DNA of 64,000 nt, taken from Microbacterium sp. Leaf320 (GTDB lineage Bacteria > Actinomycetota > Actinomycetes > Actinomycetales > Microbacteriaceae). Under the pieces are notes generated by a model that saw nothing but the letters and a program-made list of their open reading frames with translations, searched no databases and was not told the origin of the DNA. The position numbers were made by a program, and so were the translations under genes. Positions 49,512 through 55,871 of the stretch are shown here, piece after piece. Numbering within the stretch: position 1 is the stretch's first letter; each line of letters opens with the position of its first letter. The stretch spans positions 705,890 to 769,889 of the forward strand of contig NZ_LMOD01000002.1 of NCBI RefSeq assembly GCF_001423485.1, given 5' to 3'.

Positions 49512-50261
49512 TCAGCGCAGCACCGACACCCGCCCCGCGAGCTCCTCGATCACGGGATTCGCATCGCGGGGGTCGACGACGACGCCCGCGACGGAGTCGA
49601 GGTCGAGCACCGGATACTGCGAGGTCGCGCCGATCTTCTCCTCGCTGCCGAGCACGAACGTCCGTGTGCAGCGTGCGGCGATCGCCCGCTTTGTGACTGC
49701 GTCGTCGAGGTGGCCGGTGGTCAGGCCGCGCGCCGGGTCGATGCCCGTCACGCCGAGGAAGAACAGGTCGGCGGCGAGGTGCTGCACGGCTTCCATCGCG
49801 AGCGGGCCGCTCGCGACCATAGAGAATCGTGCGAGCTCTCCGCCGATCATCACGATGCGGGCGTCGGAGTGCTCGGCCACGGCCAGGGCGATCGCGGGGC
49901 TCGGCGTGATGACCGTGAGCTCGGCGCCGCGGGGGAGCATCCGGGCCATCGCCAGGGTCGTCGTGCCGGCATCCAGCACGATCGTCGAGCCCGGGGCGAT
50001 CAGGTCGACCGCACGACGGGCGACTCGCTCCTTGCTGTCCGTCGCAAGCGAGGAGCGCTGATCGACGGGTCTGTCGGCGGGCGGCACCGGCAGGGCTCCG
50101 CCGTAGACGCGCACCATTTCGCCGGCGTCGGCAAGCTCTCGGAGGTCGCGTCGGATCGAGTCCTCCGAGACGCCGAGGTCGAGGGCGACGTCTTTCGCGA
50201 CCACGCGGCCGTCTCTGCGGAGGATCTCTCGCAGATGGTCCTTGCGCTGTGCGCCCAGCAT
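49512..50261 (-). CDS. DeoR/GlpR-family transcriptional regulator
   Basis: 249 aa. The N-terminal helix-turn-helix (about 4-58, RKDHLREILRRDGRVVAKDV) carries the family-typical VSEDSIRRDLRELADAG. The C-terminal DeoR sensor domain, with VLDAGTTTLAMARML and FFLGVTGIDPARGLTTG, binds phosphorylated sugars. It is divergent from a DUF4406-like gene and direct repeats lie between them. GGGAG lies near the start codon. It may control sugar-phosphate or nucleoside metabolism. Confidence 0.9.
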   Translation of the reverse strand: MLGAQRKDHLREILRRDGRVVAKDVALDLGVSEDSIRRDLRELADAGEMVRVYGGALPVPPADRPVDQRSSLATDSKERVARRAVDLIAPGSTIVLDAGTTTLAMARMLPRGAELTVITPSPAIALAVAEHSDARIVMIGGELARFSMVASGPLAMEAVQHLAADLFFLGVTGIDPARGLTTGHLDDAVTKRAIAARCTRTFVLGSEEKIGATSQYPVLDLDSVAGVVVDPRDANPVIEELAGRVSVLR

Positions 50262-50331: not shown

Positions 50332-50703
50332 ATGACAACTCCACTCCTGATTCTCATCGCCGGCCCCTACCGCTCGGGAACCGGCGGAGACCCCGCCCTG
50401 ATCGCCCGCAACCTCGAGCGCCTCGAAGAGGCCGCCGCCCCCATTCACCGCCGCGGCCACGTGCCGATGATCGGCGAATGGGCAGCCCTGCCGATCCTCC
50501 GCGGGATGGATGAGGCGGATGCCGCCGACGGCGACGTCATGTACGAGACCGCCCACCGACTGCTGCAGCACTGCGACGCCGTGCTGCGCCTGGCAGGCGA
50601 GTCCGCCGGGGCCGACAAGGACGTCGAGATCGCCCTCGAGCGCGGGTTGCCCGTGTATCGCTCGATCGACGAGATCCCGGTGCGGGCGGGCGTGGCCGTG
50701 TAG
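50332..50703 (+). CDS. DUF4406-like protein (nucleoside 2-deoxyribosyltransferase-like fold)
   Basis: 123 aa. LILIAGPYRSGTGGDP is the nucleotide-binding opening of nucleoside 2-deoxyribosyltransferase-like and DUF4406 proteins. A late AGADKDVEIALERGLPVYRSID segment contains the catalytic acid-like region. TACAGT ends seven bases before the ATG, so the gene is probably leaderless. The small size and isolation next to a DeoR-type regulator suggest nucleotide or sugar salvage. Exact activity is unknown. Confidence 0.7.
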   Translation: MTTPLLILIAGPYRSGTGGDPALIARNLERLEEAAAPIHRRGHVPMIGEWAALPILRGMDEADAADGDVMYETAHRLLQHCDAVLRLAGESAGADKDVEIALERGLPVYRSIDEIPVRAGVAV

Positions 50704-50788
50704 TCGGTGCGCCGTCGGAACGGAGGAGGCGGGAGGACCGCCTCCTCTCGCGGATTGCCCGCTTCCCGCAGGTGGCGTAGATTGCCCA

Positions 50789-50802
50789 GTAAACGCTTTC
50801 CC
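50789..50802. promoter_or_regulatory. LacI-family-type operator before the beta-helix/toroid gene
   Basis: GTAAACGCTTTCCC fits the AANCGNTT core of LacI-family sites, about 40 bases upstream of the ATG. The sequence differs from the operators at 22087 and 22133, so a different LacI-type protein outside this window is implied. Confidence 0.6.
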
Positions 50803-50841
50803 GCTTGGAGCAAGCCGGATCACCCGACCCGAGAGGCTGAC

Positions 50842-52665
50842 ATGACCACCGGATCCGAGACCGGCCTCCCGTTCGACCGCACTCACTTCGACTACTCGCC
50901 GTGGTCGTTCTGGACCGACGCGTCCGACGAGCAGAAGCAGCGGCAGCTCGCGTTGCAGCACGCCCTCGTCGGCGCCAGACCGGATCATGTGCTGGGCGAT
51001 CGCACCTTCATCTCGGAGCTCGCGGCGGTGCAGACCGACAGCCTCGAGCTCGGCGATCGCACGTACATCGCCGCGAATGCCTATGTCACCGGAAAGGTGC
51101 GCACAGGCAGGGACTGCACGATCAATCCGTCGGCGATCGTCAGGGGAGACATCCGCATGGGGGATGCCGTGCGCATCGGCGCCTTCGCGTCGATCATCGG
51201 CTTCAACCACGGTTTCGCAGACACCGAGGTCGAGATCTTCCGGCAGCCGCTCACCAGCACGGGGATCGTGATCGGCGACGACGTGTGGATCGGCTCGCAC
51301 GTGACGGTGCTCGACGGGATCACCGTCGGCGAGAAGTCCATCCTCGCCGCGGGTGCGGTCGTCACGAAGGACGTACCGGCCGGGGCGATCGTCGGCGGCA
51401 ACCCGGCGCGGGTCATCCGCTCGCGGTTCGCGCCGACAGCGCCGACGACGCCGCAGCCGGTGCCGCAACCTATGTCGCCGCAACCGGTGCCGCGAGCGGT
51501 GCCGCAACCGACACCGCAACCGGTCGTGCCGAAGCCCGAGTCCCTGTCGGGCCGGCTCGTACACTTCGCGAGCACCGCGCGAGCGCAGGCGCCCGCCATC
51601 CTCGCCCGCTCCTGGAATCCGCACATCGCCGACGGCCTGTTCTCCGACAGTCCCGATGCCCCACCGACCGTGCGGGCGCAGTGCGACGCGATCGAGATCA
51701 GCTCGCTGCTGCTGGGCCGGGCGCCGGATCAACTCCCTGCCGACGCGCAGATCGCTCGGCTGCAGTCGTATCAGGATCCGGAGACCGGCCTCGTCCCGAG
51801 CCTGGGCGCGGATGGCCTGATCGAGCGCCCCGCGCCAGGAGTCGACCTGAACGACGGCGATGCGGCGTATCACGTCGAATGCGTCGGCTATGCGCTCGAC
51901 CTGCTCGGTGCGCGCTTCCCGTACCCCATCCGCTCGGTCGCCGAGATGTCGGGCGACGAGGTGGTCGGGTTTCTCGGGAGCCGCTCATGGCGCAGCCGGG
52001 CATGGGGTGCCGGCCACGACGTGGACGCGCTCGGAACGGCGCTGCTGTGGAACCTCGACCACGGGAAGCGGGGCGCGTTCGAGGCGTACTTCGGCTGGCT
52101 GTTCACCCACGTCGACCCGGCGACCGGAATGTGGGGCCACCCGCGGTCGGACGACGGTCTGCTGCAGATCGTGAACGGCTACTACCGGCTGACCAGGGGC
52201 AGCTTCGCCCAGTTCGGAGTCCCGCTGCCGTACGCCGACCGTGCCGTGGACACCGTGCTCGCGCATACACGGGATACGCGGTTCTTCGAGCCGGAGAGAC
52301 TCAACGCCTGCAACGTCCTCGATGTCGCGCATCCGCTCTGGCTGCTGCGCCCGCAGACCGGCGCTTATCGATCCGACGAGATCCGGGCCCTCGCCTCGAA
52401 CCTTCTCGACGCAGCGCTCGACAACTGGGTCGACGGCGAGGGATTCGGCTTCCAGACCCCGTCGTCGTCGAGCGGGCTCACGGGTGCCTCGGCACCGGGG
52501 CTTCAGGGCACGGAGATGTGGCTGTCGATCGTCTGGCTTCTCGCCGACCTGCTCGGCGAATCCGACGCTCTGGAGTACCGCCCGCGTGGCATCCATCGCC
52601 CGGAGCCCGCGCGCGGGATCCCGCTCGGTGAGGCGGCATCCCCGGCACTCGACACGGCTCACTGA
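50842..52665 (+). CDS. Left-handed beta-helix acyltransferase fused to an alpha-toroid domain
   Basis: 607 aa. Residues about 45-195 form hexapeptide repeats of the maltose/galactoside O-acetyltransferase type ([42 protein letters not shown]). The candidate catalytic histidine is H123 in FNHGFAD. A Pro/Gln/Val linker (about 198-231) leads to a C-terminal region of about 370 residues with helical repeats ([46 protein letters not shown]). That pattern resembles the (alpha/alpha)6 toroid of terpene cyclases and polysaccharide lyases. No signal peptide is seen. The gene directly precedes GH35 and follows a LacI-type operator. Confidence 0.72.
51436..51540 (+). repeat. Low-complexity linker repeat (PQPVP units)
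   Basis: Imperfect repeats of CCGCAGCCGGTGCCG-type units encode the PQPVP/PQPTP linker between the beta-helix and toroid domains. Length variation is likely between strains. Confidence 0.7.
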
Positions 52666-52673
52666 GGAGAACC

Positions 52674-54947
52674 ATGACCGCGACGTCGCGCCTTCGGACC
52701 ATCCGGCTCCTCGATGACCGGCCCCCGCTCATCGAGCCGGCCATGAGCAACACCGAGGACCCGCACGAGAGGCTGCGTCTGACGAGTCGGTGGATCGAGG
52801 TCGATGGGTCACCGACGGTGCCGGTGACCGGCGAGATGCACTTCAGCCGGATACCGTGCAGGCGGTGGGAGGAGCAGCTGCGGCTTCTCGTCGCCTCCGG
52901 ACTCACCTCGGTCTCGACATACGTGTTCTGGATCCACCATGAGCGCGAACGCGGTCAGGTGCGGTTCGACGGCGACCTGGACATCGCGGCCTTTCTCGAG
53001 ACGGCGGAGCGGGTGGGCATCGACGTGATCCTTCGCATCGGTCCGTGGTGTCACGGAGAGGTCCGAAACGGCGGTCATCCGGACTGGGTGGTCTCAGCCC
53101 TCGGCGGTCGCGCACGGACGAACGATCCCGAATACCTCGCGCTGGTGCGCGACTGGTACGAACGCATCGCCGAACAGGTTCGGCCGTTCTGCGGCCCGGA
53201 TCGGCCGATCGTCGGCATCCAGCTCGAGAACGAGCTCCACGACCAGCCCGATCACATCGCGGCTCTGAAGGTCATCGCCCAGGAGTCCGGGCTCTCGGCC
53301 CCGATGTGGACGGCGACGGGGTGGGGCGGTGCGATGCTGCCGCCCCACGACGTCTTCCCGCTCTACAGCGGGTATGCCGACGGCTTCTGGGCGGGTCAGG
53401 GCTCGACCTGGGACGACAGCTTCCGTGATCACTTCCGGTTCGCGCACGTCTGGGACGACCCGGGTGTGGGAGGCGACTTCCGGGAGGAGGGCGCCGAGAT
53501 CGTCGTGCGTGCGATCGACCCCGAGTTCCCTCCGGCGACGTGCGAGCTCGGTGGAGGCATGGCGACCGCGTATCACCGCCGACCGATCGCGCGCGGGCGG
53601 GACATCGCCGCCCTCGCCAATGTGAAGATCGGCAACGGGTCGGCGTGGCAGGGCTTCTACATGTACGCGGGAGGCGTGAACCCCGAGGACGGACTGCAGG
53701 AGAGCCTCGCCACGGGATACCCGAACGACCTGCCGCGCTTCGACTACGACTTCCAGGCGGCGTTCGGCGCCACGGGTCGTCCGGGCCCGAGCCTGGGCGT
53801 GCTCCGCGACCACAACGCGTTCCTCGCCGCCTTCGGCCCGCGCCTCGCCGACACGTTCAGCTCTCTTCCCGACGATGCCCCCGTCGACGTTCACGACCTC
53901 GACTCGCTGCGCTGGGCGGTGCGCGGAGACGGTGCCAGCGGGTTCCTGTTCGTCAACACCCATCAGCCGCACGAGCCGCTGTCGGGCTCGACCGGTGTGC
54001 AGTTCCGCATCCCCTTCGCCGATGGCGACCTGGTGGTCCCCGACCGCCCGATCGACATCCCGAGCGGGGTGATCGGCCGCTGGCCGCTGCGGATCGACGT
54101 CGCGGGTGTCCGCGTCGAGTGGGCGACGGCATCCGTCGCCGGGATCGTCGACGGTGAGGTGCCGACGCTGGTCCTCCGTGCGCACGACGGCCTTCCCGCT
54201 CGTCTGCAGTTCGGCGGAGGGCCTCGTGCCCTCCTTCGCGGGATCGAGGTGGATGCAGCGGCGCCGCTCGATCTCGACCCGGGTGATGTCCTGGTGATCG
54301 ACGGTGCCCTGCGCATCCTCGTGGTCGACGAGGAGCGAGCCGAGCGGCTCTGGTACCTCGGCGCCGACCTGATCGACTCGACGGATGCCGTCTGGCGGCA
54401 AGCCGGTGACCTCGTGGTGCGCGCAGACCGCGAGCCGACGGCGCTCATCTGGAGTGGCGAGGAGTTCACCCCGCTCGTCCTGCGCACCCACGCGCGGCCG
54501 GGATCGACCCGAGTGATGGTCGAGGAGCTGCGCCCCGTGGGCGACGTCCCGGCGCGCTACGGCGAATCGATGGGCCGGTCGGCAGCGCCCGACAGCGCGC
54601 AGTTCGACGACGTCGCCGGTGTCTGGCGGATCGTGCCGCCCGCGCCGCACGACCGGTCGGCGGGAGATCTCGTCGAGCTCGTCGTCGATTGGGAGGGCGA
54701 CGTCGCCCAGCTCCGCGCGGACGGCGTCGTGATCGGGGATCGCTTCTGGGACGGCCTGACCTGGCGCATCGACGTCACCGAACTCGCTCCCGGTGCGGAT
54801 CTCACCCTGCACATCGCGCCGATCGCGGCGCACAGCGTGATCGATCTCGACGCGTCCGTGCGCGATCGCGTCGATGCGGCGGGGTGCCTCGGGGCTGTCG
54901 TCCGCATCGATCGCGTCGTGTCCTCGCGCTGGACGTCAGAGCGCTGA
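52674..54947 (+). CDS. GH35 beta-galactosidase
   Basis: 757 aa. The N-terminal (beta/alpha)8 barrel carries GH35 signatures: PVTGEMHFSRIP, acid/base E187 in GIQLENELHD and nucleophile E291 in CELGGGMATAYH. Later residues form beta-sandwich domains. No signal peptide is evident, so the enzyme is cytoplasmic. GGAGAACC precedes the ATG, eight bases after the beta-helix/toroid stop. It probably removes terminal beta-galactose from a galactan or glycan-derived oligosaccharide. The upstream O-acyltransferase/toroid partner suggests acylated glycans. Confidence 0.85.
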   Translation: MTATSRLRTIRLLDDRPPLIEPAMSNTEDPHERLRLTSRWIEVDGSPTVPVTGEMHFSRIPCRRWEEQLRLLVASGLTSVSTYVFWIHHERERGQVRFDGDLDIAAFLETAERVGIDVILRIGPWCHGEVRNGGHPDWVVSALGGRARTNDPEYLALVRDWYERIAEQVRPFCGPDRPIVGIQLENELHDQPDHIAALKVIAQESGLSAPMWTATGWGGAMLPPHDVFPLYSGYADGFWAGQGSTWDDSFRDHFRFAHVWDDPGVGGDFREEGAEIVVRAIDPEFPPATCELGGGMATAYHRRPIARGRDIAALANVKIGNGSAWQGFYMYAGGVNPEDGLQESLATGYPNDLPRFDYDFQAAFGATGRPGPSLGVLRDHNAFLAAFGPRLADTFSSLPDDAPVDVHDLDSLRWAVRGDGASGFLFVNTHQPHEPLSGSTGVQFRIPFADGDLVVPDRPIDIPSGVIGRWPLRIDVAGVRVEWATASVAGIVDGEVPTLVLRAHDGLPARLQFGGGPRALLRGIEVDAAAPLDLDPGDVLVIDGALRILVVDEERAERLWYLGADLIDSTDAVWRQAGDLVVRADREPTALIWSGEEFTPLVLRTHARPGSTRVMVEELRPVGDVPARYGESMGRSAAPDSAQFDDVAGVWRIVPPAPHDRSAGDLVELVVDWEGDVAQLRADGVVIGDRFWDGLTWRIDVTELAPGADLTLHIAPIAAHSVIDLDASVRDRVDAAGCLGAVVRIDRVVSSRWTSER

Positions 54948-55055: not shown

Positions 55056-55871
55056 ATGACCGACGGCCTCGAGTTCCCCCGCCATGTCTTCGATGCGCTC
55101 GGCGCAGATCCCATCGCGTGGGAGGACCGCATCGGCGGTGCGATCCGGGTGGTCGAGAAGCGGCCGGCCGGCGGTCCGATCACGATCATGACCTCGGGGG
55201 CCTCTCTGATGCCCACGGACTCGGGCGAGCGCGTCGAGCTGGCGGTCGAGGTGCTCGACGGTCAGCAGGGTGCCGCTCGCGTGGCGCTCGGGATCGTGTG
55301 CGACGACATGGCGACGAACCGGCGGGTGCCCCCGGTCGGTGCCCCGTGGCGCAACAGCGAGCCGTTCCTCACCGGCACCCGGATCTCGGCGATCATGGTG
55401 ACGCCGTCGCGCTGGGGCGCATCGTTCGACGACGTCCGCGCCGACGACGGAACGGTGATCGGGCATGTCCGCACGCTCCGGATGCTCACGGATGCCGAGG
55501 CCGGCTTCGCTTCGGCGAAGGGGTGGGACGCCCTGGTCGCGGAGGCAGGGTCGGTGGATGCTCTGCTCGATGTCACGCGCGACGACGCCGCCTCGTCTCC
55601 GGGGCTCGCGGGCAATGCCCCCGTCTTCCTGTCGAAGCTGCATGCCGAGCATCCGCCCCGCTGGATCACGTTCACGGGCAGCGACCTGCAGTCGGTCACA
55701 GGGCTCGAGTCCGAGGAGTACATGAACGACTCCGCGAATCACGAGGTGTGGTCGGTCGACTCGTTCGTCGCCCGCTTCCCGTGGGTCGCGGCCTTCGTGC
55801 GCGAAGCGAAGTCCGGCCAGACCGGGCTGTTCACCGACGCCTCGGGGGCATACGTGCTCGAAGACGACTAG
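55056..55871 (+). CDS. SUFU-like (suppressor of fused domain) protein
   Basis: 271 aa. GGPITIMTSGASLMPTDSGE and RVELAVEVLD match the SUFU domain (about 1-160). A C-terminal extension includes WITFTGSDLQSVTGLESEEYMNDSANHE. SUFU-like proteins in bacteria are often immunity-like partners of toxins, but no toxin gene lies beside this one. GAGACT ends six bases before the ATG, a weak leaderless promoter candidate. Convergent with the SDR gene. Role uncertain. Confidence 0.65.
   Translation: MTDGLEFPRHVFDALGADPIAWEDRIGGAIRVVEKRPAGGPITIMTSGASLMPTDSGERVELAVEVLDGQQGAARVALGIVCDDMATNRRVPPVGAPWRNSEPFLTGTRISAIMVTPSRWGASFDDVRADDGTVIGHVRTLRMLTDAEAGFASAKGWDALVAEAGSVDALLDVTRDDAASSPGLAGNAPVFLSKLHAEHPPRWITFTGSDLQSVTGLESEEYMNDSANHEVWSVDSFVARFPWVAAFVREAKSGQTGLFTDASGAYVLEDD

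Follow-up and report, generated by a model that had tools for sequence, protein, structure and literature searches.

Conserved fusion of a left-handed beta-helix acyltransferase with an (alpha/alpha)6 toroid and its tentative role in uronic-acid oligosaccharide catabolism

A 64,000-nucleotide stretch of the genome of Microbacterium sp. Leaf320 (contig NZ_LMOD01000002.1, forward-strand positions 705,890 to 769,889; the whole stretch is termed the window herein) encodes a protein of 607 amino acids that joins, in one open reading frame (ORF), a left-handed beta-helix (LbH; hexapeptide) acyltransferase domain to an (alpha/alpha)6 toroid domain (plus strand, 50842 to 52665, with the ATG at 50842 and the stop codon at 52663 to 52665). 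The architecture and conservation of this fused protein are established computationally. The fusion occurs in Actinomycetota, Verrucomicrobiota, rhizobia, and one Haloarcula, with both halves conserved together, and in several distant lineages, though not universally, there is a strong association with genes for uronate enzymes. Given the identities of the DUF2264/GH154, PL33-like, and BNR_4 neighbors (GH, glycoside hydrolase; PL, polysaccharide lyase), the fusion most likely serves the intracellular catabolism of uronic-acid oligosaccharides. We propose, with somewhat less than even confidence, that it is a cytosolic two-domain enzyme that breaks down imported uronic-acid-containing oligosaccharides, with an acetyl coenzyme A (acetyl-CoA)-dependent LbH domain and a toroid that binds or processes the acidic sugar.

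The LbH domain (residues 60 to 196; plus strand, 51019 to 51429) had been likened to maltose acetyltransferases in a preliminary description, and the matches bear this out. It matched Pfam Hexapep (PF00132) with an E value of 6.8e-17 (60.8 bits, cutoff of 27; best stretch at residues 141 to 176), which places it in the LbH superfamily, and gave 116 matches at an E value of ≤0.001 among PDB sequences, the first four of which include maltose and galactoside acetyltransferases. AlphaFold2 also modeled strands in this region. Like the maltose and galactoside O-acetyltransferases Maa and LacA and other hexapeptide acyltransferases, the domain has LbH repeats, a His column, and VWIG and VVTKD-P...G-P-RVIR stretches that are largely common to the aligned PDB acetyltransferases. 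The candidate catalytic base, His123 (codon at 51208 to 51210, plus strand), stood opposite a His in all four PDB alignments printed. The fusion protein differs from Maa and LacA in its additional toroid of ∼360 residues, and it scored far below their equivalog cutoffs (51.8 bits against 347 for LacA, NF007076, and 56.7 bits against 314 for Maa); all NCBIfam sugar acetyltransferase models that matched the LbH half did so below their cutoffs. No signal peptide was apparent by eye in the N-terminal sequences inspected.

A variable proline-rich linker (residues 197 to 234; plus strand, 51430 to 51543), identified from the translation and the alignment of relatives, connects the two domains; a linker of the PQPVP type is indeed present in the window, as described earlier, but its sequence is not kept among relatives. 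The toroid that follows (residues 235 to 592; plus strand, 51544 to 52617) had been anticipated as a helical-repeat region, and its (alpha/alpha)6 fold is well supported by modeling: AlphaFold2 predicted six helix pairs for the toroid alone (predicted local distance difference test score [pLDDT] of 90.8 and predicted template modeling score [pTM] of 0.90), against a pLDDT of 76.2 and a pTM of 0.60 for the whole protein.

Sequence searches assigned the toroid to no family. NCBIfam gave no match up to an E value of 1 and PDB sequences none up to an E value of 10, whether the query was the single sequence or a 38-row profile, and a Pfam scan of 38 toroids at an E value of ≤5 returned only three chance-like families (the best, DUF411, at 0.046 in one member). 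The scan contained no match to the GH88/GH105 family (PF07470), for which hhalign gave a probability of 0.2% with a shallow family alignment, and none to a prenyltransferase family. Likewise, no similarity was detected between the toroid profile and the GH88, DUF2264, PL33, and GH35 families, whose alignments were shallow, and the toroid fell outside the DUF2264/GH154 and PL33/heparinase II/III profiles. The absence of any significant Pfam, NCBIfam, or PDB sequence match also speaks against membership of a known unrelated or nonenzymatic family, an outcome that the preliminary description had named as fatal to its view; the toroid is a widespread domain without a Pfam match.

Comparisons of the predicted structure were ambiguous, and the superfamily of the toroid is not settled. 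Foldseek found nothing at an E value of ≤0.001, with template modeling (TM) scores of ∼0.45 or less in the top rows; its first four entries were AprG (2.6e-3), the PL27 lyase BACCELL_00875 (5noa; 1.5e-2), a GH88 enzyme (4q88; 1.7e-2), and Rab geranylgeranyltransferase (2.0e-2). VIA-align instead ranked farnesyltransferase beta subunits first (Z score of 20.6, 4.2 Å over 297 residues), with ∼11 to 12% identity among its top rows; for the full model, the Z score of a sugar epimerase was 13.3. GH88 and PL27 entries were not among the 50 VIA-align rows listed, a list filled by prenyltransferase entries, so that their absence excludes nothing. The fold matches to characterized proteins are divided among protein prenyltransferase beta subunits, GH88, and PL27, the last without significance. 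The activity and (alpha/alpha)6 barrel of BACCELL_00875, an L-rhamnose-alpha-1,4-D-glucuronate lyase, have been described, and in the available part of that report it differs from the fusion in having a beta-sandwich domain and no LbH domain (PMC8377490).

Conservation extends over both halves. His123 is a His in all 39 alignment rows with a residue at this position (the 40th, the shortened L076, is gapped there) and in 11 of 11 further rows. Altogether, 58 positions showed a single amino acid across 51 rows that included Haloarcula and the rhizobia, when L076, L014, and L063 were set aside and gaps in a few rows were tolerated. The invariant residues include H123, W149, R278, D282, Y343, W383, W388, D395, W431, and N445, as well as Y448, R449, R452, Q457, C490, D494, H497, E558, and H585. 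Many of those in the toroid fall on the second helix of a predicted helix pair, and they may line one pocket of the model. Protein prenyltransferases have an Asp-Cys-His zinc site; the toroid has an invariant Cys, Asp, and His at C490, D494, and H497, a resemblance in residue types.

The preliminary description had left open that the fusion might break into two genes in most relatives, and this is not the case: a single gene was seen in nearly all. Among 26 contig loci, 20 had LbH and toroid (including L021, which is frame-broken), 4 had LbH only, 1 was cut by a contig end (L019), and 1 had no ORF match. Toroid matches were found in 10 of 58 whole genomes of relatives and in 16 of 394 genomes of the class. 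On plasmids, 136 records contained a toroid (115 from Rhizobium, 9 from Agrobacterium, 5 from Neorhizobium, 2 each from Streptomyces and Allorhizobium, and 1 each from Frondihabitans, Haloarcula, and Martelella), and in 128 records a single site covered 80% or more of the full-length query. From these counts, the LbH-toroid fusion is the rule; the exceptions are the frame-broken L021, L075, and L106, the shortened L076, and the distant toroid-only L077. A phylum-wide profile search matched only the window's own genome among 296, with at most six candidates scored per genome, and for this reason it is not read as absence elsewhere. In a phylogenetic tree, the window protein and its L001 orthologue formed a lineage separate from the genus's nine other sequences (clade support of 100/99), which makes a separate acquisition of the window/L001 copy likelier.

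The genes around the fusion were compared with home-made profiles in 55 genomes or records, whose flanks were of unequal length, some contigs being short (L019 and G023 at contig ends, the weak partial match G339 with an E value of 9.7e-5, the second, broken G261 copy L075, and the distant L077 were left out). The commonest marked partners were three families of uronate enzymes, the PL33-like lyases, DUF2264, and GH88, which recur in distant lineages. At least one of them lay in the examined flank of 17 of the 55, at least two in 15 (L008, L018, G005, G006, G018, G024, G028, G375, G435, G261, L099, L103, L105, L107, and L110), and all three in 12 (the same set minus G005, G261, and L099); L003 and L005 had one. 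L008 and L018 are from Microbacterium, and, G261 excepted, the listed G genomes (seven) belong to the same genus as the window. Over 20 whole genomes, GH88 gave 17 matches in 14 (13 with one above the cutoff), 7 of them within ∼11 kb of the fusion, where well under one would be expected by chance according to an estimate made without a random-gene control.

Gene order was kept in part of these loci. A PL33-like gene, a regulator, and the fusion follow each other in six (L008, L018, G018, G024, G375, and G435), and in G006 a series that starts with GH88 and continues with FAA hydrolase, SDR, KduI, PfkB, and KDPG aldolase genes has the fusion at its end. On two plasmids of Agrobacterium vitis, the order is heparinase, ATP-binding cassette (ABC) transporter gene, GH88, ABC transporter gene, DUF624, solute-binding protein, DUF2264, and fusion, with a gap of 5 bases between the last two, and plasmids of Allorhizobium and Neorhizobium have all three partner families nearby. 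On a Haloarcula plasmid (L099, 260 to 6758), GH88, DUF2264, FAA hydrolase, Gfo/Idh, and ABC transporter genes lie downstream of the fusion, the other side being cut by the record end; its presence with GH88 and DUF2264 in a haloarchaeon suggests that the module has crossed from one domain of life to another. Around part of the copies lie genes for sugar ABC importers, for sugar-acid enzymes, and for regulators of the LacI or DeoR-HTH-PBP type. Other lyase-type neighbors were PcRGLX (exo-rhamnogalacturonan-lyase-like) with DUF2264 in L003, RGL11 in L004, BNR_4 in L015, and heparinase II/III in L005 and L070. Two GH28 genes lie near the fusion in Streptomyces NBC_00184, and genes for GH2, GH42, GH127, GH78, and GH29 in L069.

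The partner families were identified by their own matches. The DUF2264 neighbor matched PDB entries named beta-D-glucuronic acid dehydratase (1.7e-24) and glucuronate dehydratase (1.2e-23), and slightly better an entry named beta-galactosidase (4.2e-26); on sequence grounds, DUF2264 corresponds to GH154. According to the available text of a 2025 study, two GH154 enzymes, one of them the founder of the family, are dehydratases, the nonfounding one priming chondroitin-type sugars for GH88, and the active-site residues mutated in the dehydratase BcGDH, a uronide-active relative of this frequent neighbor, include Tyr, Arg, Asn, Trp, and Glu (PMC12269599). The heparinase-like neighbor matched PDB entry 8r73 and its kin (2.3e-76), which belong to a study of PL33 that, as far as its text is available, concerns lyases acting by uronate beta-elimination (PMC11848413). 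BNR_4 (PF15892) is given as the family of a Rha-GlcA lyase in the accessible part of the PL27 report (PMC8377490). The toroid itself has no detectable sequence similarity to DUF2264/GH154 or to PL33 and other heparinase II/III-type lyases, its frequent neighbors.

Several observations weigh against the proposed uronate role. In 38 of the 55 records, the flank examined contained none of the three partner families, and the flank had been lengthened for eight genomes in which partners were already known. Since 17 of 20 genomes carry DUF2264 at one place or another, its mere presence is not specific. Six of the seven genomes with GH88 nearby keep both the fusion and DUF2264, and the fusion therefore does not replace GH88 or DUF2264. 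Some neighborhoods are of another kind: the Frondihabitans fusion lies near GH2, GH92, and GH125 genes, a Promicromonospora locus (L011) has an AtuA-type gene (PF07287, 1e-27; "acyclic terpene utilisation") second upstream of the fusion, and in five annotated Rhizobium records its neighbors are proline/hydroxyproline-betaine genes and a LysR gene in convergent orientation. In addition, AlphaFold2 modeled the LbH part at lower confidence.

In the proposed role, the N-terminal LbH trimer would use acetyl-CoA to acetylate a hydroxyl of a uronic-acid sugar, with His123 acting as the base as in maltose and galactoside O-acetyltransferases, and the C-terminal toroid, through its invariant Arg, Asp, Tyr, Asn, Cys, His, and Glu residues, would bind and probably also chemically process the acidic sugar. 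Here, the trimer, the cytosolic location, the use of acetyl-CoA, the uronide as the ligand, and catalysis by the toroid are all inferred. In several lineages the fusion would cooperate with GH88 hydrolases, glucuronate dehydratases of the DUF2264 type, and PL33-like lyases, and in the window it would be paired with a divergent GH35 protein in place of uronate enzymes. The proposal raises the question of why an acetyltransferase should belong to a degradative pathway; precedents are LacA and the lysosomal heparan N-acetyltransferase. A bolder version, which we regard as a long shot, makes the toroid the founding member of a new uronide-active family: within one protein, the LbH domain would esterify a hydroxyl of the uronic acid (e.g., O-4) by means of acetyl-CoA, and the toroid would expel the acetate as the leaving group of a beta-elimination or would in some other way need the acetylated sugar. 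If so, acetyl-CoA would drive the opening of uronosides that are beyond the reach of plain dehydratases.

In the literature searched, no description of the fusion or of its role was found, in agreement with the earlier statement that no enzyme with this combination was known, and plasmid annotations read only "acyltransferase," "putative acetyltransferase protein," "O-acetyltransferase trimeric LpxA-like protein," or "DapH/DapD/GlmU-related protein." Since it occurs in several phyla and an archaeon, partly beside genes of acidic-sugar breakdown, the fusion is probably an unrecognized part of that process. If the uronide reading is true, it adds an unrecognized component to the catabolism of glucuronate glycans in organisms as far apart as Microbacterium, rhizobia, and a haloarchaeon, and it offers a testable partner for the DUF2264 and GH88 loci, for which a 2025 study described the dehydratase step (PMC12269599, available text).

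Among the alternatives, the one that survives best, while still unlikely, is a LacA-like detoxification in which the protein acetylates oligosaccharides or dead-end sugars for exit from the cell and the toroid only selects the sugar. Galactoside and maltose acetyltransferases among the closest PDB sequences, the pairing of GH35 with an acetyltransferase, reminiscent of lacZ with lacA, and sugar ABC permease genes in 15 of 45 clustered loci (classed from Pfam and by eye) would fit it, but so many invariant polar toroid residues, kept from bacteria to an archaeon, seem more than the choice of a sugar would need. We also doubt, and rank next, that the actual catalyst is the toroid, as a lyase or dehydratase of uronides or as an unsaturated-uronyl hydrolase, and that the LbH domain serves mainly as a trimerizing scaffold. 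This would agree with neighbors from several unrelated lyase and dehydratase families, with 5noa and GH88 at Foldseek ranks 2 and 3 (E values of 0.015 and 0.017, neither significant), and with the window genome and G005, which have DUF2264 and PL33-like genes and gave no match to PF07470 (GH88). However, H123, W149, and P188/R195 are kept in all rows having them, which would hardly be expected if the domain were only a scaffold, the shallow family alignments used revealed no kinship in sequence between the toroid and GH88, DUF2264, or PL33, and seven genomes have GH88 near the fusion.

A role that varies by lineage, with the uronate association as one of several uses and the betaine neighborhood of Rhizobium as another, appears rather improbable to us. 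The betaine context does recur in the five annotated Rhizobium records (e.g., L098, 13944 to 15596; L101, 8371 to 10023; and L102, 8371 to 10023), where a ring-hydroxylating dioxygenase gene and betaine transport genes adjoin the fusion and, in four of the five, a hydroxyproline epimerase gene is present. Against it, the proteins of L098, L101, and L102 differ from that of the window only in H475, an Asn in them, at the 30 columns listed, and Agrobacterium proteins from the uronate locus have the same Asn. Least probable of all, an isoprenoid or lipid-linked role, in which the toroid would act as protein prenyltransferases or terpene cyclases do, with the LbH domain acylating a lipid-linked or terpenoid compound, draws on the VIA-align Z score of 20.6 to farnesyltransferase beta, above the 13.3 to the sugar epimerase, and on the AtuA match in L011, but is opposed by the Foldseek and Pfam results given above and by the fact that, L011 apart, no isoprenoid gene occurred among the neighbors scanned, which are a part of all neighbors.

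The uronate proposal replaces in part the role suggested by the preliminary description, the processing of a galactose-containing glycan. The sugar-catabolic context stands, and GH35, GH30_2, alpha-L-arabinofuranosidase, GH2, or GH42 genes do lie near some copies, with genes of the gal type near related uronate loci, but the recurrent partners are uronate enzymes; galactose remains plausible as a co-component. The GH35 pairing is likewise real in the window and minor elsewhere: the window's GH35 subfamily accompanies the fusion in 3 of the 55 (the window, L012, and L001), and canonical GH35 genes lie within ∼16 kb of it in three more (G028, G024, and G435). The window gene encodes a divergent GH35 family protein of 757 amino acids (plus strand, 52674 to 54947), probably on the same transcript. 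Its ATG (52674) lies 8 bases past the fusion gene, as first described, behind a stretch resembling a ribosome-binding site (GAGGAGAACC), and PF01301 matched at 52743 to 54944 with 141.4 bits (cutoff of 27; E value of 6.5e-41), assigning it to GH35. Its relatives are in L001 (91% identity), where an AraC gene lies between the two genes, and in L012 (Promicromonospora sukumoe; 41%), where the called ORFs overlap by 4 bases; in five other Promicromonospora loci, no GH35 of this subfamily was found in the flank seen.

Upstream of the fusion, a putative sigma70-like promoter (TTGCCC-N17-TAGATT; plus strand, 50755 to 50783) was read from the sequence, and identical bases precede the L001 orthologue. 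It is directly followed by a weak candidate for a LacI/cre-like operator (AGTAAACGCTTTCC; plus strand, 50788 to 50801), the same in L001, which fits a LacI/cre-type consensus in 10 of 12 specified bases. A LacI-type operator had been proposed here; the resemblance holds, but one match was found where 0.68 would be expected by chance in 64 kb, so the operator sequence alone is not significant. A scan of the neighboring regulator placed it in the DeoR type. In other loci of the genus, the repeat found upstream of DUF2264 is another one (AACGATCA-like).

The window's own genome has a related uronate locus on another contig (C6, 57885 to 68009; L091, 3889 to 14007), with PL33-like, regulator, DUF2264, importer, DUF624, and hydroxyacid dehydrogenase genes. 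The fusion is absent there exactly where G005 has it, between the hydroxyacid dehydrogenase and Gfo/Idh-like genes. We considered that the window gene might be the moved orthologue of this missing copy and dropped the idea on the separate lineage of the window and L001 proteins in the tree. Leloir-type genes that read by eye as galT, galK, and galE follow this locus and also lie near the corresponding one of G005; G024 has galT and galK close to its locus.

Gene calls in these neighborhoods came from a codon-model caller and are approximate, and selected neighbors were scanned with Pfam. In the window, a small gene (50332 to 50703; weak DUF7768/DUF1937/DUF4406 matches) and a divergent DeoR-family regulator gene (49512 to 50261) lie upstream of the fusion, and relatives of both occur near the fusion in L001 and L058 too. 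The gene downstream of GH35 (55059 to 55871) matched the SUFU domain (PF05076, 9.3e-6) and is unrelated to the sugar genes. In L059 (11299 to 14046), a 916-amino-acid protein with no Pfam match at an E value of ≤0.01 is encoded directly upstream of the fusion. The toroid-only distant relative in L077 (9396 to 10415), with no other full-length match among 246 genomes, lies beside a gene for an ABC solute-binding protein and, as judged by eye, differs at most of the invariant positions. In L011 (8232 to 9605), the AtuA-type gene is accompanied by an isocitrate/isopropylmalate dehydrogenase-type gene upstream of the fusion.

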